DNA from: Solirubrobacterales bacterium
GTDB taxonomy: Bacteria > Actinomycetota > Thermoleophilia > Solirubrobacterales > 70-9
Assembly: GCA_021155855.1 (NCBI GenBank)
Contig: JAJNAZ010000024.1
Location: forward strand, 1-35,399
Direction: 5' to 3'
Length of the DNA stretch: 35,399 bases
Each line of letters begins with the position of its first letter. Positions within the stretch are counted from its first letter, which is position 1. The notes beneath the pieces were generated by a model, which did not search any database, was not told where the DNA came from, and saw only the letters and a program-made list of their open reading frames with translations. Positions 5,438-16,597 of the stretch are shown here, one piece after another. A program made the translations under genes and the position numbers.

Positions 5438-6670
5438 ATGAGCTCCCGATTCCAGGCCCCGCGGGGGACCTTCGACATCCTCCCCGCCGGCTGGGAGCAG
5501 CGGGCGCGGGTCTACGCGGCCGCCGCCCAGATCTTCGAGCGCGCCGGCTACGGGCGGATCGAGACCCCGGCGTTCGAGGACAGGGAGCTGTTCGCGCGCG
5601 GGGTGGGTCAGTCGACCGACATCGTGCAGAAGGAGATGTTCAGCTTCACCGATCAGGGCGGGCGGGGGCTGACCCTGCGCCCCGAGGGCACGGCACCGAT
5701 CGTCCGCGCGTACGTCGAGCACGGCATGCACAGGCTCGCCCAGCCGGTGAAGCTCTGGCACTGGGGCCCCTACTTCCGCCACGAGCGCCCCCAGTCGGGC
5801 CGCTTCCGGGAGTTCAACCAGATCGGCGCCGAGGCGATCGGCTCGGACTCGCCCCTGGTCGACGCCGAGCTGATCATCCTGCTCGACGAGCTGTTCCGGG
5901 AGCTCGGCATTGCCGGCATTCGCCTGCGGCTCGGCAGCCTCGGCTCGCCCGCCACCAGGGCCGCCTACCGAGACGAGCTGCAGGCCTACTTGCGCCAGCG
6001 CGAGGCGGAGCTGGCGCCGACCGTGCGCGAGCGGATCGACCTCAACCCGATGCGCGCCTTCGACTCCGACGATCCGGGCACGCGTGCGGTGATGGAGGAG
6101 GCGCCGACGATGCTCGAGCGCCTCGACGACGCCGACGCAGAGCACTTCGCCGCCGTCCGGGCGATGGTCGATCGCGCCGGGATCAGCTACCAGCTCGATC
6201 CGACCCTGGTCCGCGGGCTCGACTACTACACCCGCACCGTGTTCGAGTTCGAGTCCGACCGCCTCGGCGCCCAGGCGGCGCTCGGCGGCGGCGGCCGCTA
6301 CGACGGCCTGGTCGAGCAGCTCGGCGGGCCCTCGACCCCCGCCTGCGGCTGGGCCGCCGGGATCGAGCGGATCCTGCTGGCGCTCGACGAGGAGGCCGAC
6401 GAGCCCGGCGTCGACGTCTTCGTCGCCGCCTCCGAGGATCAACGCGAGCGCGCCTTCGCGCTCGTGCGCGAGCTGCGGCGGGCCGGACTGCGCGCCGAGC
6501 TCGACCTCGCCGAGCGCTCGCTCAAGGGCCAGATGAAGCAGGCGGACCGGCTCGGCGCCCGGGCGGCGATCGTGCTCGACGAACAGCAGCCGGCCCAGCT
6601 TCGCGACATGACCAGCGGCGAGCAGCGCGAGCTCGACCTGGCACGGGCGGTGGAGGAGCTGGGCCCATGA
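5438..6670 (+). CDS. hisS: Histidyl-tRNA synthetase
   Basis: A 410-residue class II aminoacyl-tRNA synthetase that charges tRNA-His. It begins with the family's PRGTFDILP segment, followed by motif 1 and TLRPEGTAPIVRAY, motif 2 GPYFRHERPQSGRFREFNQ, the HisRS-specific histidine-binding RGLDYYTRTVFEF (about 262-274), GGGGRYDGL and motif 3 CGWAAGIERILLAL. The C-terminal anticodon-binding domain (about 325-410) contains the DLAERSLKGQMKQADR block. Length is normal for the short bacterial type. It is followed after 52 nt by aspS, the usual pairing. Confidence 0.97.
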   Translation: MSSRFQAPRGTFDILPAGWEQRARVYAAAAQIFERAGYGRIETPAFEDRELFARGVGQSTDIVQKEMFSFTDQGGRGLTLRPEGTAPIVRAYVEHGMHRLAQPVKLWHWGPYFRHERPQSGRFREFNQIGAEAIGSDSPLVDAELIILLDELFRELGIAGIRLRLGSLGSPATRAAYRDELQAYLRQREAELAPTVRERIDLNPMRAFDSDDPGTRAVMEEAPTMLERLDDADAEHFAAVRAMVDRAGISYQLDPTLVRGLDYYTRTVFEFESDRLGAQAALGGGGRYDGLVEQLGGPSTPACGWAAGIERILLALDEEADEPGVDVFVAASEDQRERAFALVRELRRAGLRAELDLAERSLKGQMKQADRLGARAAIVLDEQQPAQLRDMTSGEQRELDLARAVEELGP

Positions 6671-6722
6671 CGCGAAGTCCGGCGAGACGAAGCCGAATCG
6701 CGCGGCTGTCGAGGCGGTCTCC

Positions 6723-8516
6723 GTGAGCGGACGCGGCTTCCCGGCCCTGCGCGCGAACGAGTACCGCGACGCGTGGTGCGGCCAAGTGCTCGCCGACCGG
6801 GTCGACTTCGAGCTCCGGCTCGCCGGCTGGATCCACCGGCGCCGCGACCACGGCGGGCTCGTGTTCGTCGACCTGCGCGACCGCACCGGCCTCGTCCAGC
6901 TCGTCTTCGATCCCGACGAGTCCGGCGCCGCGTTCGAGCTTTCCCACCAGCTGCGCGCCGAGGACGTGATCAGCGTCGCCGGCCGGGTGGTTCGCCGCGC
7001 CCCCGAAACCGTCAACCCCGAGCTGCCGACGGGGGAGTTCGAGCTTCGCGTCGACGAGGCCGAGCGGCTCGGCGGGGCGGCCACCCCGCCGTTCGAGATC
7101 GAGGCGTACTCGGGCGAGGTCGGCGAGGAGATGCGGCTGCGCTACCGCTATCTCGACCTGCGTCGGGAGCGCATGCGCGAGGCGATCGAGCTTCGCCACG
7201 GGGTGGCGAAGGCGATCCGCGACTTCCTCGGCGGCGAGGGCTTTCTCGAGATCGAGACGCCGATGCTCTCGCGCTCGACCCCGGAGGGCGCCCGCGACTT
7301 CCTCGTCCCCTCGCGGCGCGAGCCGGGCTCCTTCTACGCCCTGCCGCAGTCGCCGCAGCTGTTCAAGCAGCTGTTGATGGTCGCCGGGTTCGAGCGCTAC
7401 TTCCAGATCGTGCGCTGCTTTCGCGACGAGGACCAGCGCGCCGACCGTCAGCCCGACTTCACCCAGCTCGACCTCGAGATGTCCTTCGTCGGGGTCGAGG
7501 ACGTGCTCGACCTCAACGAGCGCCTGCTCGCCGCCGTCTTCGAGGCGGTCGGCGGCCCGGCGCTCGAGCTGCCGCTGCCGCGGCTGCCCTACGACGAGAC
7601 GCTGACCCGCTACGGCACCGACCGCCCCGACCTGCGCTTCGGGCTCGAGCTGGTCGAGCTCACCGACCTGGTCGCCGAGACCGAGTTCAAGGTCTTTCGC
7701 CGCACGATCGAGGGCGGCGGCGTGGTCAAGGGCCTCAACGCCGGCGCCCGCGAGGTGCCGCGCTCGGTCCTCGACGGGCTGATCGAGCGCGCCCAGGAGC
7801 TCGGCGCCAAGGGGCTGGTGTGGGCGTTTCGCGAGGGCGAGGGCTGGCGCTCGCCGACGGCGAAGTTCCTCTCCGCGGAAGAGCTGTCAGCGCTCAACGA
7901 GCGGCTCGGAGCGGAGGAGGGCGCCCTGTTGCTGGTGGTCGCCGACCGCGCCGAGGTCGCGAACTCGGTGCTCGCCCAGCTGCGGCTCGAGCTCGGCGAA
8001 CGCTTCGGGCTCGTCGACCCCGGCGCGGAGGCGTTCTGCTGGATCACCGAGTGGCCGATGTTCGGCTGGAACGAGGACGAGCGGCGCTGGGACCCGCACC
8101 ACCATCCCTTCACCGCGCCCGCCGAGGGCTTCGATCCCGAGCGCCCCGGCGAGGCGCGGGCGCTCGCCTACGACCTGGTCTGGAACGGTCAGGAGCTCGG
8201 CGGCGGCTCGATCCGGATCTCAGACCCCGAGCTGCAACAGCGGGTCCTGGAGACGATCGGGATCGGCGCCGAGGAGGCGCGCGATCGGTTCGGCTTTCTG
8301 CTCGAGGCGCTTCGCTACGGCGCGCCGCCGCACGGCGGGATCGCCTACGGGCTCGACCGCTGGGTGCAGCGGCTGCTGCACGCGGACTCGATCCGCGACA
8401 CGATCGCCTTCCCGAAGGCGGCCTCGGGCGCCGACCCGCTCACCGGCGCCCCGGCGCCGGTGGGCGAGGCCCAGCTTCGCGAGCTCGGGCTGGCGCTGCG
8501 CTCGCCGGGCCGCTGA
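6723..8516 (+). CDS. aspS: Aspartyl-tRNA synthetase, bacterial type
   Basis: A 597-residue class II synthetase with an N-terminal OB-fold anticodon domain (LAGWIHRRRDHGGLVFVDLR, about 36-55), motif 2 RCFRDEDQRADRQPDFTQ, the bacterial GAD insertion (about 290-420) and motif 3 GIAYGLDRWVQRLL. It charges tRNA-Asp. The residue after RRRD is His; in Pseudomonas AspRS a His at this place is linked to relaxed specificity that also misacylates tRNA-Asn, so this enzyme may be non-discriminating and work with GatCAB. That is inference from one residue. The GTG at 6723 starts the protein at the right place relative to homologues; the upstream Shine-Dalgarno is weak. Confidence 0.96.
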   Translation: MSGRGFPALRANEYRDAWCGQVLADRVDFELRLAGWIHRRRDHGGLVFVDLRDRTGLVQLVFDPDESGAAFELSHQLRAEDVISVAGRVVRRAPETVNPELPTGEFELRVDEAERLGGAATPPFEIEAYSGEVGEEMRLRYRYLDLRRERMREAIELRHGVAKAIRDFLGGEGFLEIETPMLSRSTPEGARDFLVPSRREPGSFYALPQSPQLFKQLLMVAGFERYFQIVRCFRDEDQRADRQPDFTQLDLEMSFVGVEDVLDLNERLLAAVFEAVGGPALELPLPRLPYDETLTRYGTDRPDLRFGLELVELTDLVAETEFKVFRRTIEGGGVVKGLNAGAREVPRSVLDGLIERAQELGAKGLVWAFREGEGWRSPTAKFLSAEELSALNERLGAEEGALLLVVADRAEVANSVLAQLRLELGERFGLVDPGAEAFCWITEWPMFGWNEDERRWDPHHHPFTAPAEGFDPERPGEARALAYDLVWNGQELGGGSIRISDPELQQRVLETIGIGAEEARDRFGFLLEALRYGAPPHGGIAYGLDRWVQRLLHADSIRDTIAFPKAASGADPLTGAPAPVGEAQLRELGLALRSPGR

Positions 8517-8818: not shown

Positions 8819-9217
8819 TCAGGCTCCGCCCCAGGGGTCGTCGACGAGGATTCCCCAGGTCCCGTCCGCGCGGCGGCGCATCACGTCGGCGCTGGTCCCG
8901 CTCATCTCGACCGCCGCGCCCGTCGGGTTGGTGCCCGCGAGTCGCCAGCGGTTGATGATCAGGGCGGTGTCGCCGGCCTCGTGGACCCGCTGCACCTCGC
9001 CCGTGATCGTCGGCTCGAGCGCGAACAAGGCCCGCAGCGCCTCGCCGATCCGCTCGCGTCCGCTGATCGCGTCCTGGTCGGGCGCCGGGCGGAACACGGC
9101 TCCGGGCAGATAGAGGGCGAGCGCGCCGCCGAGGTCGCCCGCGTTCAGGCACGCCGCAAACCGCGCCAGCGCCTCGACCGGAGTTGACGCTTGAGCCGTC
9201 GTCGAGTCAGTGGTCAT
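8819..9217 (-). CDS. NTF2-like/SnoaL-fold (SgcJ/EcaC-type) protein
   Basis: A 132-residue protein with the single-domain NTF2-like cone fold pattern: an N-terminal helix VEALARFAACLNAGDLGGALALYLPGAVF, the typical GRERIGEALRALFALEPTI block, and strands ending ADGTWGILVDDPWG. It resembles SgcJ/EcaC or ketosteroid-isomerase-like proteins, which bind small hydrophobic ligands or act as minor hydrolases/isomerases; no activity can be assigned. A good Shine-Dalgarno (AGAGGAG) precedes ATG 9217. It lies 38 nt downstream of marR on the same strand, so it is probably the regulated partner in a two-gene operon. Confidence 0.8.
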   Translation of the reverse strand: MTTDSTTAQASTPVEALARFAACLNAGDLGGALALYLPGAVFRPAPDQDAISGRERIGEALRALFALEPTITGEVQRVHEAGDTALIINRWRLAGTNPTGAAVEMSGTSADVMRRRADGTWGILVDDPWGGA

Positions 9218-9255
9218 TTCTCTTACTCCTCTCGGTCGTCCGGGTCGGCCCGGAT

Positions 9256-9711
9256 TCAGGCCTCGATCACGCTTCGCAGCCCGCGCTTCATCGTCTCGCT
9301 GGTTGTCCGTGTCAGGTGCTCCTCGATCCGCGAATCGAGGCCGGCGAGCACCTCCTCGGCCACCGGCCGGAAGAGGTGCGCCCGGGGGAGCAGGACCACG
9401 CGGCGGGCCCGGCGGTCGACGTCGTCGCGGTCGCGGCGCACGAGCGCGTCGCGCTCCATCTGCGCGACGAGCGTGGTCATCGTCTGCTTCGACAGTCGCG
9501 CCCGGCGCCCGAGCTCGCCCATCCGCAGCCCGTCCTGCTCGAACAGGGGCAAGAGCACCGAGCCGTACGAGGGCTGAACCTCGCCAAACCCTCGCTCGGC
9601 GAAGGCCGCGGCCAGGAGCTGGTTCCAGCGCGCGCTCGCCTTGGCGAGCAGAAAGCCGAGGTTGTCGGTGCTCGCGCGTGATCCGATCGATGTGGGGGCG
9701 CCGGAACTCAA
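9256..9711 (-). CDS. MarR-family transcriptional regulator
   Basis: A 151-residue winged-helix repressor. The DNA-recognition part is LRMGELGRRARLSKQTMTTLVAQMERDALVRRDRDDVDRRARRVVL (about 60-106), with the standard helix-turn-helix and the Arg-rich wing (DxRxRxV variant); flanking helices would form the dimer. MarR proteins typically repress their own operon and release DNA on binding phenolic or oxidant ligands. The start is TTG 9711, the only plausible initiator; a perfect-arm palindrome begins 2 nt upstream, which implies autoregulation. Downstream is the NTF2-like gene. Confidence 0.88.
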   Translation of the reverse strand: MSSGAPTSIGSRASTDNLGFLLAKASARWNQLLAAAFAERGFGEVQPSYGSVLLPLFEQDGLRMGELGRRARLSKQTMTTLVAQMERDALVRRDRDDVDRRARRVVLLPRAHLFRPVAEEVLAGLDSRIEEHLTRTTSETMKRGLRSVIEA

Positions 9712-9712
9712 A

Positions 9713-9732
9713 ATAGTCTGAGTTCAGACTAT
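9713..9732. promoter_or_regulatory. MarR operator palindrome
   Basis: ATAGTCTGA-GT-TCAGACTAT is a perfect inverted repeat with 9-bp arms around a 2-bp centre, AT-rich against a very GC-rich background. It abuts the TTG start of the MarR gene, and its arms contain TAGTCT, which fits the local -10 pattern, so bound protein would block transcription. It lies 41 nt upstream of the divergent mnmA -10 box and could also affect that gene. Confidence 0.8.
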
Positions 9733-9784: not shown

Positions 9785-11230
9785 ATGGACCACGAGGCCA
9801 TGGACCTGTATCTGCGCGACTCGAGCCGGCGCGGCGCGGCGCTGAGCGGCGGTTTCGACGGTGCCGCCGGGGGCGCACCGTGTGGCGACCTGGTGCGGCT
9901 CTCGGTGGTGCTCGAGCGTGGCCGGGTCGCCCGGGTGAGCTTCGACGCCGAGGGCTGCGCGACGGTCAACGCCGCCGCCGCCGCCGCCGCGGAGTTCGCC
10001 GACGGCGAGCCGGCGCTCGATCTCGCCCGGATCGGGCCCGACGAGATCGCCGCCGCGCTCGGGGGCATCGGGCCGCAGGGCCGCCATGCCGCCGAGCTGG
10101 CGGCCGACGCGCTTCACCGAGCCCTGGCGGCGGCGGCCGGATCCGAGACGGCCCTCGCCGCGCCGCCGGCAAGCTGGGAGCGGGTGCTGGTCGCGCTCAG
10201 CGGCGGCGTCGACTCCGCGGTGGCGGCGCTGCGCGAGCGCGAGCGTGGGGCGGAGGTGGTCGCCGTGACGCTGAAGCTGTGGGCCGACCGGCGCACCGAC
10301 GCGACCCGAAGCTGCTGCTCGCCGCTCGCCGTGCTCGGAGCCCGCGAGCTCGCGCACTCGCTCGGCATCGCCCACTTCACCCTCGACCTCGAGGCGGACT
10401 TCCGCGCCCGGGTCGTCGACGGCTTCGTCTCCGGCTACCGCGCGGGGCGGACCCCGAACCCGTGCGTGATCTGCAACGGCGAGCTGCGCATCGACGCGAT
10501 GCTGGCGCTCGCCGATCGGCTCGGGTGCTCCGCGCTCGCCACCGGCCATTACGCCCGCCTGGTCGACGACGGCGAGGGGTCGCTGCTGACCGCGGCCGCC
10601 GATCCGGCCAAGGACCAGACCTACATGCTCTCCGGCCTGCGCCCGGCATCGCTGGCGCGGCTGCGCTTCCCGCTCGCGGAGCTGACCAAGCCCGAGGTGC
10701 GTGCGCTCGCCGCCGACGCCGGCCTGCCGGTCGCCGCGAAGGCCGAGAGCCAGGACCTCTGCTTCCTCGCCGGTGAGGGCAAGCGCGGCTTTCTCGCCCG
10801 CAACGGCGGGCTCTCCGAGCGGCCCGGGCCGATCGTCGACCGCCGCGGCCGGCGCCTCGGCGAGCACCGCGGCCACCACGAGTTCACCGTCGGCCAGCGC
10901 CGCGGGATCGGCCTCGGCGGGCCTGAGCCGCTCTACGTGCTCGCCACCGACGCGCGCGCGAACGAGGTCATGGTCGGCACGCGCGAGGACCTCGCCCGGC
11001 GGCGGGTACGGGTTCGCGAGGCGACGCTGCACCGCCCCGGCGGGCGGGTCGACCGGGTGCGGCTGCGCTACCACGCGAAGCCGCTCGCCTGCGAGCTTCC
11101 CGGCGTCCCCGCCGGGCGCCACGACGAGCTCGAGCTCGAGCTCGCCGAGCCCGCCCACGGCGTCGCCCCGGGGCAGACGGCCTGCCTGATGTCGGGCGAC
11201 GTGGTGGTCGGCCGGGCGACGATCGCCTGA
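9785..11230 (+). CDS. mnmA: IscU-like scaffold domain fused to tRNA 2-thiouridylase MnmA
   Basis: A 481-residue two-domain protein; MnmA alone is about 360. Residues 1-118 match the IscU/NifU-N scaffold: GGAPCGD (Cys33, Asp35), FDAEGC (Cys58) and RHAAELAADALHRAL, where the third scaffold cysteine is Ala102 although the preceding His101 is kept. Residues 131-481 are MnmA: PP-loop SGGVDS (139-144), NPCVICN (Cys227, Cys230), ATGHYAR, KDQTYML, and SQDLC (Cys326), then the tRNA-binding and beta-barrel parts. MnmA adenylates and thiolates U34 of Lys, Glu and Gln tRNAs. The CxxC plus distal Cys pattern, instead of DxxC as in E. coli, is the form reported to bind a [4Fe-4S] cluster. In-cis cluster or sulfur delivery by the fused domain is my inference. 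A continuous frame with no internal start signal argues for a true fusion. Confidence 0.92.
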   Translation: MDHEAMDLYLRDSSRRGAALSGGFDGAAGGAPCGDLVRLSVVLERGRVARVSFDAEGCATVNAAAAAAAEFADGEPALDLARIGPDEIAAALGGIGPQGRHAAELAADALHRALAAAAGSETALAAPPASWERVLVALSGGVDSAVAALRERERGAEVVAVTLKLWADRRTDATRSCCSPLAVLGARELAHSLGIAHFTLDLEADFRARVVDGFVSGYRAGRTPNPCVICNGELRIDAMLALADRLGCSALATGHYARLVDDGEGSLLTAAADPAKDQTYMLSGLRPASLARLRFPLAELTKPEVRALAADAGLPVAAKAESQDLCFLAGEGKRGFLARNGGLSERPGPIVDRRGRRLGEHRGHHEFTVGQRRGIGLGGPEPLYVLATDARANEVMVGTREDLARRRVRVREATLHRPGGRVDRVRLRYHAKPLACELPGVPAGRHDELELELAEPAHGVAPGQTACLMSGDVVVGRATIA

Positions 11231-11351: not shown

Positions 11352-13994
11352 ATGAGACCGGACGAGATCCGCGAGACGTTCCTGTCGTACTTCGAGCGGC
11401 GCGGGCACCTGCGCCTGCCCTCGGCGTCGCTGGTGCCGGCGCCCGACGACACCTCGACCCTGCTCACGGTCGCCGGCATGCAGCCGCTGAAGCCCTACTT
11501 CGAGGGCCGCGAGGAGCCACCGAAGCGGCGCCTGACCTCACCGCAGCGCTCGTTCCGGACGGTCGACATCGAGGTGGTCGGCTCGACCAAGCGCCATCTG
11601 ACCTTCTTCGAGATGCTCGGCAACTTCAGCATCGGCGACTACTTCAAGGCCGAATCGATGGCCTACGGCTGGGAGCTCTCGCTCGAGGGCTTCGACTTTG
11701 ACCCGGACCGGATCTGGGTGACCGTGTTCGCGGGCGACGAGGAGCTCGGTCTCGGGCCCGACACCGAGTCGATCGAGATCTGGCGCGAGATCGGGGTCCC
11801 CGAGCAGCGGATCGTGCGCCTGCCGCGGGCGGAGAACTTCTGGCAGGGCGGCGAGACCGGCCCCTGCGGACCGTGCTCGGAGATGTACATCGATCGCGGG
11901 CCGCAGTTCGGCTCCGACGACCTGCGTCCTGGCGACGACACCGATCGATACCTCGAATACTGGAACCACGTGTTCATGACCTATGAGCTGCACGAGGACG
12001 GCTCGCTCACCGACCTGCCGCAGAAGAACATCGACACCGGGCTCGGCCTCGAGCGCATGGCGGTAATCCAGCAGGGCGTCGACTCGGTCTTCGACACCGA
12101 CGCCCTCTCGCCGCTGATCGCGCTCGCAGAACAGCTCTCGGGGTCGAAGTACAACTCCGATCCGAAGGTGACCCGGGCGATGCGGATCATCGCCGACCAC
12201 TCGCGCGGCACCGTCAACCTGATCGCCGACGGGGTCGTGCCCTCGAACGAGGACCGCGGCTACGTGCTGCGGCGGATCATGCGACGGGCGATCCAGCAGG
12301 GCCGGGTGCTCGGGCTCGAGCCGCCCTACTTCGGCCGCTTCGCCGAGCGCGCGATCGAGCTGATGGCGGATGCCTACCCGCACCTCGCCGCCGAGTACGG
12401 ATCGATCCTGCGCTGGGTCGGCGACGAGGAGCAGAGTTTCGGCCGCACGCTCGACCGCGGCACCGAGCTGCTCAAGCGCCTCGTCGCCGAGGCCAAGTCG
12501 AAAAACACCTCGTGGATCGACGCGGAGGACGCCTTCCGCCTCCACGACACCTACGGCTTCCCCTACGACCTGACCAAGGAGCTGCTCGCCGGCGAGGGCC
12601 TCTCGGTCGACGACGAGGGCTTCGAGGCGCTGATGGAGCAGCAGCGCACGCGCGCTCGGGCCGACTCGGGCGCCCCGGCCGCCGATCGTCACGAGGCGGT
12701 GATCTCGTTCGTCAACGCGAGCCCGCCGACGCGCTTCGTCGGTTACGAGGAGCTCAGCGCGCAGACCAGCGTCGCCGCGGCCGAGCCGCTGGGCGACGAC
12801 GGCGCGCTGCTGGTCAAGCTCGAGGAGAGCCCCTTCTACCCCGAGGGCGGCGGCCAGGTCGCCGACTCGGGGGTCGTGCGGTGGGATGGGGGAGGGACCG
12901 CCGTCGACGACGTCTACCGGGTCGGCGATGACCAGGCCCTCCGCCTCGCCTCCGCCGAGCAACGAGCGACCAGTGACGGCCACCTGGCCCCGGGATCCCG
13001 CGTGATCGCCAGCGTCGATCACACCACCCGCCACGCCACCATGCGCAACCACACCGCCACCCACCTGCTGCACGCGGCGCTGCGCGAGCGGCTCGGGACT
13101 CACGTTCGGCAGGCGGGCTCGGCGGTGCGGCCCGACAAGCTGCGCTTCGACTTCACCCACGGGGCGCCGCTGAGCCGCGAGGAGGTGCGCGCGATCGAGG
13201 ACCGGGTCAACAATTGGGTCAAGGCGAGCAGGCCGGTGCGGGCGCTGGAGATGGAGCGTGCCGAAGCCGAGGCGCTCGGGGCGATGGCGCTGTTCGGCGA
13301 GAAGTACGGCGACTGGGTGCGGGTGATCGAGGTCGACGATGTCTCGCGTGAGCTCTGCGGCGGCACCCACGTCGCCAACACCGCCGAGATCGGCATCGTG
13401 GCGATCGTCTCGGAGGGGTCAAGCGCCGCCAACGTGCGCCGGCTCGAGGCGCTCAGCGGGCCGGCGGCGATCGATTGGTACCGCGGGCGCAGCGACGAGC
13501 TGAGCGAGGCCGGAGCGCTGCTCGGCTCGCCGCGCGACGCCCTTGCGGCCGCGGCGCGCGCCGCCGAGCGCCTGGCCGAGCTCGAGCGCCGGATCGAGGA
13601 GCTGCGGCGCGATGAGGCCGGTGCCGAGGCCAAGCGGCTCGGCGAGCAGGGCGAGGAGATCGCCGGCGTTCGGGTGATCGTCAGCGAGGGCCAGGGCGCC
13701 AACCAGCGCGAGCTGCTCGACCTCGCCGACCGGATCAAGCAGCGCGCCGGCGACGCGGCGGTGGTGCTCGGCGGCACCGACGACGGCAAGGTCGCGCTGG
13801 TCGCGAGCTTCACCCGGAGCGCCGTCGAGCGCGGACTGTCGGCGGCCGAGGTGATCCGCGAGGCGGCCGGCGTCGTCGGCGGCGGGGGCGGTGGGCGCGA
13901 CGATGTCGCTCAGGCCGGAGGCCGCGACCCGCAGCGCCTCGGCGAGGCGCTCGAGACGGCGCGAGCTGCGATCCGCCGCGGCCTTTCCTCGTAA
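11352..13994 (+). CDS. alaS: Alanyl-tRNA synthetase
   Basis: An 880-residue class II synthetase of full bacterial length. The N-terminal catalytic domain starts IRETFLSYFERRGH and includes FFEMLGNFSIGDYFK, the tRNA-recognition domain follows, then the editing domain with HTATHLLHAAL (zinc-binding His residues, about 573) and CGGTHVANTAEIG (about 675), and a C-terminal DHHA1/C-Ala domain ending in GGGGGGRDDVAQAGGRDPQ. It charges tRNA-Ala and clears Ser/Gly mischarging. All key motifs appear intact. The ruvX -10 box overlaps its stop codon. Confidence 0.97.
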   Translation: MRPDEIRETFLSYFERRGHLRLPSASLVPAPDDTSTLLTVAGMQPLKPYFEGREEPPKRRLTSPQRSFRTVDIEVVGSTKRHLTFFEMLGNFSIGDYFKAESMAYGWELSLEGFDFDPDRIWVTVFAGDEELGLGPDTESIEIWREIGVPEQRIVRLPRAENFWQGGETGPCGPCSEMYIDRGPQFGSDDLRPGDDTDRYLEYWNHVFMTYELHEDGSLTDLPQKNIDTGLGLERMAVIQQGVDSVFDTDALSPLIALAEQLSGSKYNSDPKVTRAMRIIADHSRGTVNLIADGVVPSNEDRGYVLRRIMRRAIQQGRVLGLEPPYFGRFAERAIELMADAYPHLAAEYGSILRWVGDEEQSFGRTLDRGTELLKRLVAEAKSKNTSWIDAEDAFRLHDTYGFPYDLTKELLAGEGLSVDDEGFEALMEQQRTRARADSGAPAADRHEAVISFVNASPPTRFVGYEELSAQTSVAAAEPLGDDGALLVKLEESPFYPEGGGQVADSGVVRWDGGGTAVDDVYRVGDDQALRLASAEQRATSDGHLAPGSRVIASVDHTTRHATMRNHTATHLLHAALRERLGTHVRQAGSAVRPDKLRFDFTHGAPLSREEVRAIEDRVNNWVKASRPVRALEMERAEAEALGAMALFGEKYGDWVRVIEVDDVSRELCGGTHVANTAEIGIVAIVSEGSSAANVRRLEALSGPAAIDWYRGRSDELSEAGALLGSPRDALAAAARAAERLAELERRIEELRRDEAGAEAKRLGEQGEEIAGVRVIVSEGQGANQRELLDLADRIKQRAGDAAVVLGGTDDGKVALVASFTRSAVERGLSAAEVIREAAGVVGGGGGGRDDVAQAGGRDPQRLGEALETARAAIRRGLSS

Positions 13995-13997
13995 TCT
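13992..13997 (+). promoter_or_regulatory. -10 box for ruvX overlapping the alaS stop codon
   Basis: TAATCT includes the alaS TAA stop and ends 7 nt before ATG 14005, so ruvX-mltG may have their own promoter as well as read-through from alaS. Confidence 0.45.
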
Positions 13998-14004
13998 GCC
14001 CCGG

Positions 14005-14421
14005 ATGCGCATCCTCGCGATCGACCACGGAGACGCCCGCGCCGGCACCGCCGTCTGCGACCCGAGCGAGACCATCGTCCGACCCCTCGGGGTCGTCGAG
14101 CCGCCCGATCCGCGGGCGGTGGCGCGGGTCGCCGCAGACGAGGGCGCGGAGCTGATCGTTGTCGGCCTGCCGGTCTCGCTCGACGGCGCCGAGCGCGCCC
14201 AGGCGGCCGCGGCGCGCGCGTTCGCCGACGAGCTGGCGGAGTTGGCCGCGGTGCGGGTGGAGACCTACGACGAGCGGCTGACCACGAGGATGGCGGCCGA
14301 GACCGCCCGCGGCGGGGCGAGCGCCCCCGCCGACGCGCTCGCGGCCTCCCATCTGCTCGAGTCCTATCTGCGCGCCCGCGATGTCGCCGACCCCGGGCGC
14401 GGAGCGGGGGAGGCCGCGTGA
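14005..14421 (+). CDS. ruvX: RuvX/YqgF-type Holliday junction resolvase-like protein
   Basis: A 138-residue RNase-H-fold protein with the YqgF signatures: ILAIDHGDARAGTAVCDP (catalytic Asp at about 6), ELIVVGLPVSLDGAE, and VETYDERLTT (Glu of the active site). The family processes the 5' end of 16S rRNA precursor and has been linked to recombination intermediates. ATG 14005 is chosen because the protein then begins exactly at the first RNase-H strand, 10 nt after alaS; a longer in-frame start at 13891 would lie inside alaS. It overlaps mltG by 1-4 nt, so translation is coupled. The alaS-ruvX-mltG-aroE order is common in Gram-positive lineages. Confidence 0.92.
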   Translation: MRILAIDHGDARAGTAVCDPSETIVRPLGVVEPPDPRAVARVAADEGAELIVVGLPVSLDGAERAQAAAARAFADELAELAAVRVETYDERLTTRMAAETARGGASAPADALAASHLLESYLRARDVADPGRGAGEAA

Positions 14422-15644
14422 TGTCGGGCGACGACTGGAACTGGCACGACCCGTTCGTCGAGGACCAGGAGGGCCTCGAGCGCGAGCGCCGCCGCGCCGA
14501 GCGCGAGGCGCGCCGCCGCGAGCGCCAGGGCCTGCTCGCGGAAAAGGTCCGCGAGCAGGGCGAGCGACCCGAGACAGCCCAGGTCGCGAGCGCAGCGCCG
14601 CGGCGCACCCCCGAGCGACCGCAGCGAGCAGCCCAGCGGGCGCCGCAAGCCGCCGAGGGACCGCAGCGATCAGCCCGGCAACCGCCGCACCCGATCCCGC
14701 CCCGCGCCGGCGACGGCAACGGCGGATCGCCGCCGGGTCCCACGGCGCCGCCCCGTTCGGCCGGCGGTGGCGACGAGGTCCCGCGTGAGGCGCTGTTTGC
14801 TCGCCGGGCGCTCGGTCTGTTGGCGGTGGCCGTGGTCGTCGTACTTCTCTATTTCGTCGGCAAGGAGGTCAAGGACCTGTTCGGCGACGACCCACAGCCG
14901 GTAGCGCAGGAGCCACAACCGTCGAAGGTGAGCGAGGTCGTCGTTCCCGAGGGGCTCGATCGCCGCCAGATCGCCGAGCTCGCCGACGAGGCGGGCCTGA
15001 CCGGCAGCTACGCCGACGCCAGCAACGAGTTCGAGGGCTTCAACCCCGGCAAGTACGGAGCGGACGGGAGCTCGAACCTCGAGGGCTTTCTCTTCCCCGC
15101 CACGTATGAGTTGCCGAAGAAGGCAACTTCCAGGGACCTGGTCGAGCGCCAGCTAGCCGCCTTCGAGGACAACATCGCCGAAGTGGATCTCTCCTACGCG
15201 AAATCGAAGAACCTCAATGTCTACGACGTGCTCAAGATCGCCTCGATGATCGAGCGGGAGATCCAGGTCGCCGACGAGCGCCGGCTGGCGGCGGCCGTGA
15301 TCTACAACCGGCTTGCCGCCGACGACACGCTCGGGATCGACGCGACGATCCGCTACGAGGATCGCAACTACGACGAGCCGCTGACCGAGAGCCGCCTCGC
15401 CGAGGACACCCCGTACAACACGCGGATCAACCCCGGCCTGCCGCCGACTCCGATCGGCAACCCCGGCCTCGCCTCGATCGAGGCGGCGGCGAAGCCGGCG
15501 CGCAGCGACGCCTATTACTTCGTCGTCAAGCCGGGGACCTGCGGCGAGCACGCGTTCGTCGAGACCGAGCAGGAGTTCGCCCGCGCCGAGGCCAAGTACC
15601 AGCAGGCGCTCGAGGCCGAGGGCGGCTCGCCGACCGATTGCTGA
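14418..15644 (+). CDS. mltG: Endolytic murein transglycosylase MltG (YceG-like)
   Basis: A 408-residue membrane protein with a long cytoplasmic arm (about 1-125) rich in Arg/Glu then Pro/Gln/Arg, one membrane helix (LGLLAVAVVVVLLYFVG, about 133-149), and an extracellular YceG domain. The active-site region is KIASMIEREIQ (catalytic Glu in the IERE block, about 278), followed by AAVIYNRL, YNTRINPGLPPTPIGNPG and YYFVVKPG. MltG cuts nascent glycan strands and sets their length. The start is GTG 14418 or ATG 14421, overlapping the ruvX stop. The arm contains an imperfect 42-nt DNA repeat (14611-14652 and 14653-14690), and such arms vary greatly among actinobacteria. Confidence 0.93.
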   Translation: MMSGDDWNWHDPFVEDQEGLERERRRAEREARRRERQGLLAEKVREQGERPETAQVASAAPRRTPERPQRAAQRAPQAAEGPQRSARQPPHPIPPRAGDGNGGSPPGPTAPPRSAGGGDEVPREALFARRALGLLAVAVVVVLLYFVGKEVKDLFGDDPQPVAQEPQPSKVSEVVVPEGLDRRQIAELADEAGLTGSYADASNEFEGFNPGKYGADGSSNLEGFLFPATYELPKKATSRDLVERQLAAFEDNIAEVDLSYAKSKNLNVYDVLKIASMIEREIQVADERRLAAAVIYNRLAADDTLGIDATIRYEDRNYDEPLTESRLAEDTPYNTRINPGLPPTPIGNPGLASIEAAAKPARSDAYYFVVKPGTCGEHAFVETEQEFARAEAKYQQALEAEGGSPTDC

Positions 15645-15654
15645 GACCCGCCAA

Positions 15655-15707
15655 GCGTCGAGTCGTACGGTGACCGTCTCAGGGACCGCGAACGTACGAC
15701 TCGGCGC
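15655..15707 (+). terminator. 15-bp stem between mltG and aroE (terminator-like)
   Basis: GCGTCGAGTCGTACG (15655-15669) pairs with CGTACGACTCGGCGC (15693-15707): 15 bp, 11 of them uninterrupted Watson-Crick, with one G-U in RNA and a 23-nt loop. It begins 10 nt after the mltG stop. No U-run follows, so it may be a non-canonical terminator, an mRNA 3'-end stabiliser, or a DNA palindrome bound by a regulator of aroE. Confidence 0.55.
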
Positions 15708-15732
15708 CTGGGCCCGAGCGGCGCGCTCGCTC

Positions 15733-15738
15733 TAGCAT
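15733..15738 (+). promoter_or_regulatory. -10 box of leaderless promoter, aroE
   Basis: TAGCAT ends 7 nt before ATG 15746, downstream of the strong stem-loop, consistent with a separate aroE transcript. Confidence 0.5.
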
Positions 15739-15745
15739 CGCGCTG

Positions 15746-16597
15746 ATGCCCCGCCTCGCGGTCCTCGGCCGGCCGGTCGCTCACTCGCGCTCGCCGGCAA
15801 TGCAAAACGCGGCGCTCGCCGAGCTCGGGCTCGCCGGCGAGTGGAGCTACGAGGCGATCGAGGTCGCGGCGGAGGAGTTCGAGCCGCTGGTCCGCTCGCT
15901 GCCGGGCCGCGACTTCGCCGGCGTCAACGTCACCGTCCCGCACAAGCTCGCCGCTCTGGCGGTCGCCGACCGTGCCTCGGCGGCGGCGCGCGAGATCGGC
16001 GCCTCGAACACGCTCAGCTTCACCGCCGCCGGGATCGAGGCCGAGAACACCGATGCCAGCGGGCTGATCGCTGCCCTGCCGGAGTCCCCGCGGGGTAGGC
16101 GCGCCCTCGTGCTCGGCGCCGGCGGCTCGGCCCGCGCCGCCGTCTGGGCGTTGAAGCGCGCCGGAGCATTGGTCGAGATCTGGAACCGGACGCCCGAGAA
16201 AGCGCAGCGGCTTGCGGCGAAGCTCGGCGTCGCGGTCAAGAGCACCGGGTCCCGATCGGACGACGCCGAGGGCCGATACATCGTCGACGGCGCCGAGTTC
16301 GACCTGCTCGTCAACTGCACCACCGTCGGGCTCGCCTCGGCAAACGAGTCCACCGACCTAGAGCCGCTCCCGCTCGATGCCGATTCTGTCCGAGACACGC
16401 ACGTAGTCGTGGACCTGGCCTACGGGCCGTCACCGACCCCGCTGATCGCCGCGGCCACCAGCCGCGGGGCGCGAGCCGTCGACGGCCTCGACGTCCTCGT
16501 CCACCAGGGAGCTGCCTCGCTGCGGATCTGGACCGGTCGCAATCCGCCGCTGGAGACGATGCGACGGGCGGCGCGCGAGCGTCGAACACCGGCTTGA
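15746..16597 (+). CDS. aroE: Shikimate dehydrogenase (NADP+)
   Basis: A 283-residue enzyme converting 3-dehydroshikimate to shikimate. The substrate-binding domain shows LGRPVAHSRSPAMQNAAL (Ser pair contacting shikimate) and GVNVTVPHKLAA with the catalytic Lys (about 66); ASNTLSF and ENTDASGL carry the conserved Asn and Asp. The NADP domain has LGAGGSARAAVWAL and WNRTPEKAQRLA, where Asn-Arg-Thr favours NADPH. The C-terminus has LDVLVHQGAASLRIWTG with the family's Gln. It is separated by about 6 kb from the rest of the shikimate genes in this window. Confidence 0.95.
   Translation: MPRLAVLGRPVAHSRSPAMQNAALAELGLAGEWSYEAIEVAAEEFEPLVRSLPGRDFAGVNVTVPHKLAALAVADRASAAAREIGASNTLSFTAAGIEAENTDASGLIAALPESPRGRRALVLGAGGSARAAVWALKRAGALVEIWNRTPEKAQRLAAKLGVAVKSTGSRSDDAEGRYIVDGAEFDLLVNCTTVGLASANESTDLEPLPLDADSVRDTHVVVDLAYGPSPTPLIAAATSRGARAVDGLDVLVHQGAASLRIWTGRNPPLETMRRAARERRTPA

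Follow-up and report, generated by a model that had tools for sequence, protein, structure and literature searches.

The stretch of DNA analyzed here (35,399 nucleotides, positions 1 to 35,399 of contig JAJNAZ010000024.1 of the Solirubrobacterales bacterium assembly GCA_021155855.1; in the following, the window) encodes a single protein of 481 amino acids in which an IscU-like domain precedes a complete MnmA. The fused domain has kept, in all 42 aligned members of the window's order, the four residues Cys33, Asp35, Cys58, and His101, which correspond to the single-metal site of free ISCU, and has lost the third scaffold cysteine, which is Ala102. We tentatively propose, at close to but short of an even chance of being right, that this domain is a metal-dependent sulfur acceptor disabled for cluster assembly, which would take sulfur from the cysteine desulfurase SufS in cis for MnmA. 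The protein bears on how MnmA is supplied with sulfur in bacteria with SufS as the only desulfurase, and on the active dispute between a persulfide and a [4Fe-4S] mechanism of MnmA. The fusion unites the donor-side and the acceptor-side chemistry in one stable chain.

Domain architecture of the fusion protein

The N-terminal part of the protein matches the Pfam family NifU_N over residues 25 to 116 (E-value 5e-14, 52.9 bits, gathering score 22), and MnmA profiles cover residues 133 to 480 above their curated cut-offs (Table 1). The scores for the two MnmA equivalog profiles were 338 bits for NF001138 (cut-off 284) and 284 bits for TIGR00420 (cut-off 237). Since the PP-loop and the cysteines C177, C178, C227, C230, and C326 are also present, the protein is a tRNA 2-thiouridine(34) synthase MnmA by profile and motif, with a putative function in the thiolation of U34. 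The arrangement CC-CxxC-C defines the C-type class of MnmA (PMC11784392), to which the fusion contributes a complete set with Cys177-Cys178, the CxxC motif, and Cys326. An earlier note on this DNA, made from the sequence alone, had placed an IscU-like domain in frame before a complete MnmA and had named Cys33, Asp35, Cys58, His101, Ala102, Cys227-x2-Cys230, and Cys326; the one open frame with its NifU_N and MnmA matches and all of these residues were found as described. Its characterization of the enzyme as CxxC+C was right in the residues and overlooked the CC motif. The special tie that it drew of the fusion to CxxC-type MnmA is rejected, because CxxC+C was present in 67/67 MnmAs examined, the unfused ones of actinomycetes and Thermus included.

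The fused domain is neither a canonical IscU nor a SufU by profile. It scored 26.8 bits with TIGR01999 (cut-off 192.4) and 40.9 bits with TIGR03419 (cut-off 187.9), and the third cysteine of the canonical IscU set is Ala102 in 42/42 order members. With the SufU equivalog TIGR01994 it reached 23.3 bits (cut-off 92.5). From the C-D-C-C zinc site of SufU, C33, D35, and C58 are there, and the position of the fourth ligand is taken by Ala102 with His101 beside it. An AlphaFold model of the whole fusion, calculated with a 40-row homologue alignment, had a predicted local distance difference test score (pLDDT) of 95.2 and a predicted template modeling score (pTM) of 0.93. In this model, the N-terminal domain superimposes on the IscU of Archaeoglobus fulgidus in its complex with IscS (4EB5 chain C; Z 21.4, root-mean-square deviation 1.8), on human ISCU2 (Z about 20), and, less well, on the SufU of Bacillus subtilis (Z 14.4), and the C-terminal part superimposes on MnmA (Z 38–39).

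Conservation of the putative metal-site residues

In the alignment of the N-terminal domains of the 42 order members, only eight of 129 columns are invariant (C33, G34, D35, C58, G94, H101, A102, and A109). According to our arithmetic, the chance that the four putative ligand columns all fall within these eight is about 6e-6. The domain aligns without gaps to residues 25 to 115 of A. fulgidus IscU, so that the residue numbering is common to both proteins; C33, D35, C58, and H101 are shared, and Cys102 of IscU is alanine in the fusion. Free ISCU2 binds Fe2+ through Cys69, Asp71, Cys95, and His137, and its persulfide acceptor is Cys138 (PMC11021402). By alignment, the former four are the equivalents of C33, D35, C58, and H101, and Cys138 is the equivalent of residue 102. 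Because its residues match the ligands of the one Fe2+ or Zn2+ bound by free ISCU, the fused domain appears to retain a single-metal site without the sulfur acceptor of the ISC type, and may carry such a metal ion.

The family codes f1 to f12 are used below to tell the sampled families apart. A survey of the site covered all sampled sequences, some of which had been retrieved with a pattern requiring C33-G-D35; the constancy of these two residues in the survey is therefore partly selected, which does not affect the 42-member alignment. Among the 144 fused domains with an intact C-D-C, His101 without Cys102 was found in 132 and Cys102 without His101 in 12, and neither the combination of both nor the lack of both occurred. 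The site types were C-D-C-H-A (107 domains), C-D-C-H-G (24, family f5), C-D-C-H-V (1), and C-D-C-x-C with A, E, S, or G at position x (12; f8, f10, and f11). Asp35 and Cys58 are lost in f9 and f12, with the fold still kept in f9. The site is thus dispensable in f7, f9, and f12, since these families have lost it. In the MnmAs of f7 (L137–L139, L167–L170), the N-terminal domain is a shrunken remnant, in which the site residues and nearby loops are deleted and the core LLEAAAV / LAVDALA is recognizable.

The earlier note had suggested a search for the architecture across the class Thermoleophilia and an alignment of the scaffold domain. The fusion recurs in f1–f5 and f8–f12, and C33 and C58 are conserved and Ala102 is fixed in 42/42 order members. 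The note had named homologues with a randomly variable N-terminal region, or with none of its cysteines left, as speaking against its idea, and this applies in part: the site is intact in the order, but f9 and f12 have lost most of its residues and f7 nearly the whole domain, so that some lineages do without the cysteine chemistry. The view that the loss of Cys102 favors transfer or docking over cluster assembly is supported. Residue 102 is the counterpart of the cysteine on which ISCU2 accepts the persulfide (PMC11021402), and SufS is the desulfurase at hand.

Cysteine desulfurases and sulfur carriers

SufS is the one clear cysteine desulfurase of the window genome (540 bits, cut-off 475) and is encoded near a free SufU and sufC. 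This free scaffold passes the SufU cut-off of TIGR01994 (93.6 vs 92.5 bits). SufS bears the sequence GIHGHD (HxHD motif), whose histidine corresponds in our alignment to the zinc-replacing histidine of SufS. Type II desulfurases need SufE or SufU as acceptor (PMC8300815), and in the SufU–SufS complex of Mycobacterium tuberculosis, a SufS histidine replaces the first SufU cysteine on zinc, and this cysteine accepts the sulfur (PMC10216065). A missed IscS or other desulfurase was considered and rejected; the remaining class-V aminotransferase matches in the window genome are weak, and the two next-best read as an alanine-glyoxylate-type transaminase beside serA and an unrelated member of the family. 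As the assembly is 96.3% complete, an absence from this genome alone is weak, and weight is carried by the absence across the order: at a threshold of 1e-30, no IscS-type match was obtained in 46/48 order genomes. The same search gave a match in 19/19 sampled genomes of f6, f8, f9, f10, f11, and Rubrobacter. Within Thermoleophilia, Cys102 is kept only in IscS-bearing families (f6, f8, f10, and f11). TusA was absent in 29 and SufE in all of 31 genomes. Nearly all Solirubrobacterales tested are thus left with SufS and SufU and lack IscS, TusA, and SufE.

Family f5 (L181, L346–L350) has only weak IscS homologues. Those of six genomes read without the lysine that binds pyridoxal phosphate (GGG/GGR-type sequences in place of SAHK) and retain the catalytic cysteine loop (GSAC/GSTC); a desulfurase turned into a sulfur carrier is a possible reading of these sequences.

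Distribution and unfused relatives

A first search of 101 genomes, consisting of the own genome and close relatives, gave a match in 96. More than 80 of the matches cover both domains in one frame with 50–71% identity, and many of the remaining ones reach a contig edge at one end or fall into two matches inside one open frame. The isolate Paraconexibacter antarcticus also carries the fusion. An assembly artefact as its source is rejected, since the fusion recurs in over 80 genomes and is present in the genome of an isolate. In the class sample, 278/299 genomes had a match, with fused proteins in the ten families listed above. The fusion thus spans Thermoleophilia (mainly Solirubrobacterales in this sample) and occurs separately in Rubrobacter.

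At the equivalent genomic place, the related family f6 has an unfused operon of an iscR-like gene, iscS, iscU, and mnmA, whose free IscU keeps all five site residues and passes the NifU equivalog cut-off of TIGR03419. Both fused and unfused forms are found in f8. In f10 and f11, iscS lies immediately upstream of the fused gene, and in several cases the two genes overlap at the start of the latter. Rubrobacter has iscS ahead of mnmA, and the scaffold is either free or fused, with alanine for the third cysteine in both states. In the MnmA tree, f1–f5, f7, and f10–f12 form one supported group (99/98) with an unsettled deeper branching order. The fused Rubrobacter proteins are not one group, and the fused and unfused states require five changes over all rows. 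A natural series is thus available, from unfused three-cysteine scaffolds through fused C102 and fused H101 domains to domains with a lost site and those nearly gone. Because natural variants exist at each step, the persulfide and the cluster model can be tested by comparing existing proteins.

Proposed function and alternatives

In the mechanism that we favor, a single metal ion (Zn2+ or Fe2+) would be held by Cys33, Asp35, Cys58, and His101, and the fused domain would dock onto SufS. A SufS histidine would push Cys33 off the metal, and Cys33 would then accept the persulfide sulfur in the manner of SufU. The sulfur would move from Cys33 to the cysteines of MnmA, which would thiolate adenylated U34. 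In favor of this mechanism are the invariance of C33, D35, C58, and H101, the distribution of His101 and Cys102 among the fused domains, the gene content with SufS and mostly without IscS, TusA, and SufE, the survival of Cys102 within Thermoleophilia in IscS-bearing families only, and the role proposed for the SufE-like domain of Plasmodium falciparum MnmA (PMC10219651).

Several points weigh against this proposal. The SufU-like docking is a guess, because the domain is nearer to IscU in sequence and fold (Z 21 vs 14) and is devoid of the fourth zinc ligand of SufU. The free SufU of the window genome could supply MnmA in trans. The loss of IscS as the sole cause of the Cys102 loss is rejected, since in Rubrobacter the C-D-C-H-A domain, fused or free, adjoins an intact iscS. 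In f7 and f12, no IscS match was found and the site is lost, which means that such cells can live without it. The mutual exclusivity of His101 and Cys102 amounts to only two switches counted on the tree, because the states are common within families, and is not significant (p 0.5 in a sign test); with so few independent events, it is a pattern rather than a statistically proven rule.

The main rival is a docking or structural domain, in which the metal would only stabilize the fold and the desulfurase or SufU would be brought to MnmA, with the sulfur bypassing Cys33. Such a role is in accordance with the overall confident two-domain model (pTM 0.93), the direct transfer from the desulfurase YrvO to MnmA in B. 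subtilis (PMC10219651), the fold of f9 that persists despite the lost ligands, and the desulfurase genes that f10, f11, and Rubrobacter have beside the fusion gene. However, it does not readily explain the invariance of Cys33, Asp35, Cys58, and His101 in 42 species amid a mostly variable domain, and we consider it unlikely. An improbable alternative is delivery in cis, in which the domain would provide an iron–sulfur cluster, or iron, for a [4Fe-4S] site at the CxxC+C center of MnmA. The domain descends from a cluster scaffold, the enzyme is a CC-CxxC-C MnmA, and thiolation that depends on a [4Fe-4S] cluster is among the proposals made for MnmA, although its use of a cluster is itself disputed (PMC11784392). 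What lowers its standing is that every intact fused site misses either Cys102 (132/144) or His101 (the other 12), and that CxxC+C MnmA exists with and without the domain, also in f7, where the domain is almost gone. Least probable is a relic of an ancestral iscU–mnmA fusion with a decaying scaffold part that does little now, as could be read from the decay in f7, f9, and f12, by which the domain can evidently be given up, and from the unfused iscR–iscS–iscU–mnmA operon of f6, but in the window's order, the site is invariant in proteins of 50–71% identity.

Taking up the sulfur acceptor again, a wider claim is offered with more reserve, as one that is somewhat more apt to fail than to hold. In the class Thermoleophilia and separately in Rubrobacter, an IscU scaffold may have become a single-metal sulfur acceptor dedicated to MnmA and dead for cluster assembly. 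The redundant His-Cys pair would have been cut to one ligand after fusion or dedication, with a choice that partly tracks the desulfurase kept, and the result would be a convergent bacterial counterpart of the SufE-like domain on MnmA in the apicoplast. A type II desulfurase could then supply the thiolation of tRNA with no need for TusA or a desulfurase of its own for MnmA. The fusion also illustrates how a cluster scaffold may turn into a sulfur-transfer domain.

Gene neighborhood

The fusion gene lies in a conserved row of genes (gloB-like, hisS, aspS, fusion, alaS, ruvX, mltG, aroE). In the window, SnoaL-like and MarR genes on the opposite strand (8819–9711, −) separate aspS from the fusion, a pair that was not seen in the other neighborhoods compared. 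Between the divergent MarR gene (9256–9711, −) and the fusion start at 9785, a perfect palindrome, ATAGTCTG-AGTT-CAGACTAT, is located at 9713–9732. It is a likely candidate for a MarR operator and might affect the fusion, too. A gene for a small predicted membrane protein (about 105–135 amino acids, hydrophobic start) follows mnmA in f6, f8, f11, and Rubrobacter (L161–L165, L192, L195, L220–L230); none is present in the window.

Table 1. Features of the fusion gene and its conserved neighbors in the window
Feature	Position	Strand	Basis
IscU-like domain and MnmA in a single open reading frame, 481 amino acids	9785..11230	+	open frame, profile matches
N-terminal domain of IscU/NifU fold, residues 1–122	9785..10150	+	Pfam NifU_N, residues 25–116; fold match 4EB5 chain C
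Cys33, putative metal ligand / sulfur acceptor	9881..9883	+	invariant in 42 order members; one-to-one alignment with A. fulgidus IscU
Asp35, putative metal ligand	9887..9889	+	invariant in 42 order members
Cys58, putative metal ligand	9956..9958	+	invariant in 42 order members
His101-Ala102, third scaffold cysteine replaced by Ala102	10085..10090	+	invariant in 42 order members; H101 and C102 mutually exclusive in 144 fused domains
Complete MnmA, residues 132–481	10178..11227	+	NF001138, 338 bits (cut-off 284)
PP-loop SGGVDS, residues 139–144	10199..10216	+	sequence; invariant in 40 aligned fusions
Cys177-Cys178, CC motif	10313..10318	+	sequence
Cys227-x2-Cys230, CxxC motif	10463..10474	+	sequence
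Cys326	10760..10762	+	sequence
hisS and aspS, conserved upstream neighbors	5438..8516	+	Pfam; conserved order
alaS, ruvX, mltG (yceG), and aroE, conserved downstream neighbors	11352..16597	+	Pfam; conserved order

Comparison with known systems

Both component families are already known, and the architecture is probably listed under MnmA in protein databases. A literature search, with most subscription journals outside its scope, found no description of an IscU–MnmA or NifU–MnmA fusion, nor of this joined form with its reduced single-metal site and its evolutionary series. With the C-type CC-CxxC-C MnmA (TrmU) of Thermus and actinomycetes, the fusion shares the full-length enzyme, the PP-loop, and all five motif cysteines, and it differs by the additional N-terminal domain of IscU fold. 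In the operon of the actinomycete Tsukamurella, a cysteine desulfurase gene adjoins mnmA, and no IscU is present. The IscU/NifU scaffolds (A. fulgidus IscU, 4EB5; human ISCU2) resemble the fused domain in the fold (Z 20–21) and in the equivalent positions of C33, D35, C58, and H101, whereas the fused domain has alanine for the third cysteine throughout the order, is joined to MnmA, and scores far under the equivalog cut-offs. SufU, the zinc-dependent acceptor of SufS, has the superfamily and the C-G-D ... C metal site in common with it, and SufS is the sole clear desulfurase here. In contrast to SufU, the fused domain has His101 instead of a fourth cysteine ligand and a more distant fold (Z 14.4), and a free SufU is encoded in the same genome. 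The closest parallel is the apicoplast MnmA of Plasmodium falciparum, whose SufE-like N-terminal domain has been suggested to receive sulfur from SufS (PMC10219651). Like that protein, the fusion would be a SufS-dependent MnmA joined to a domain that resembles a SufS acceptor, and a relay in cis is proposed for both. The domain of P. falciparum is predicted to have a SufE-like fold and belongs to an unrelated lineage, so that the likeness would be convergent.
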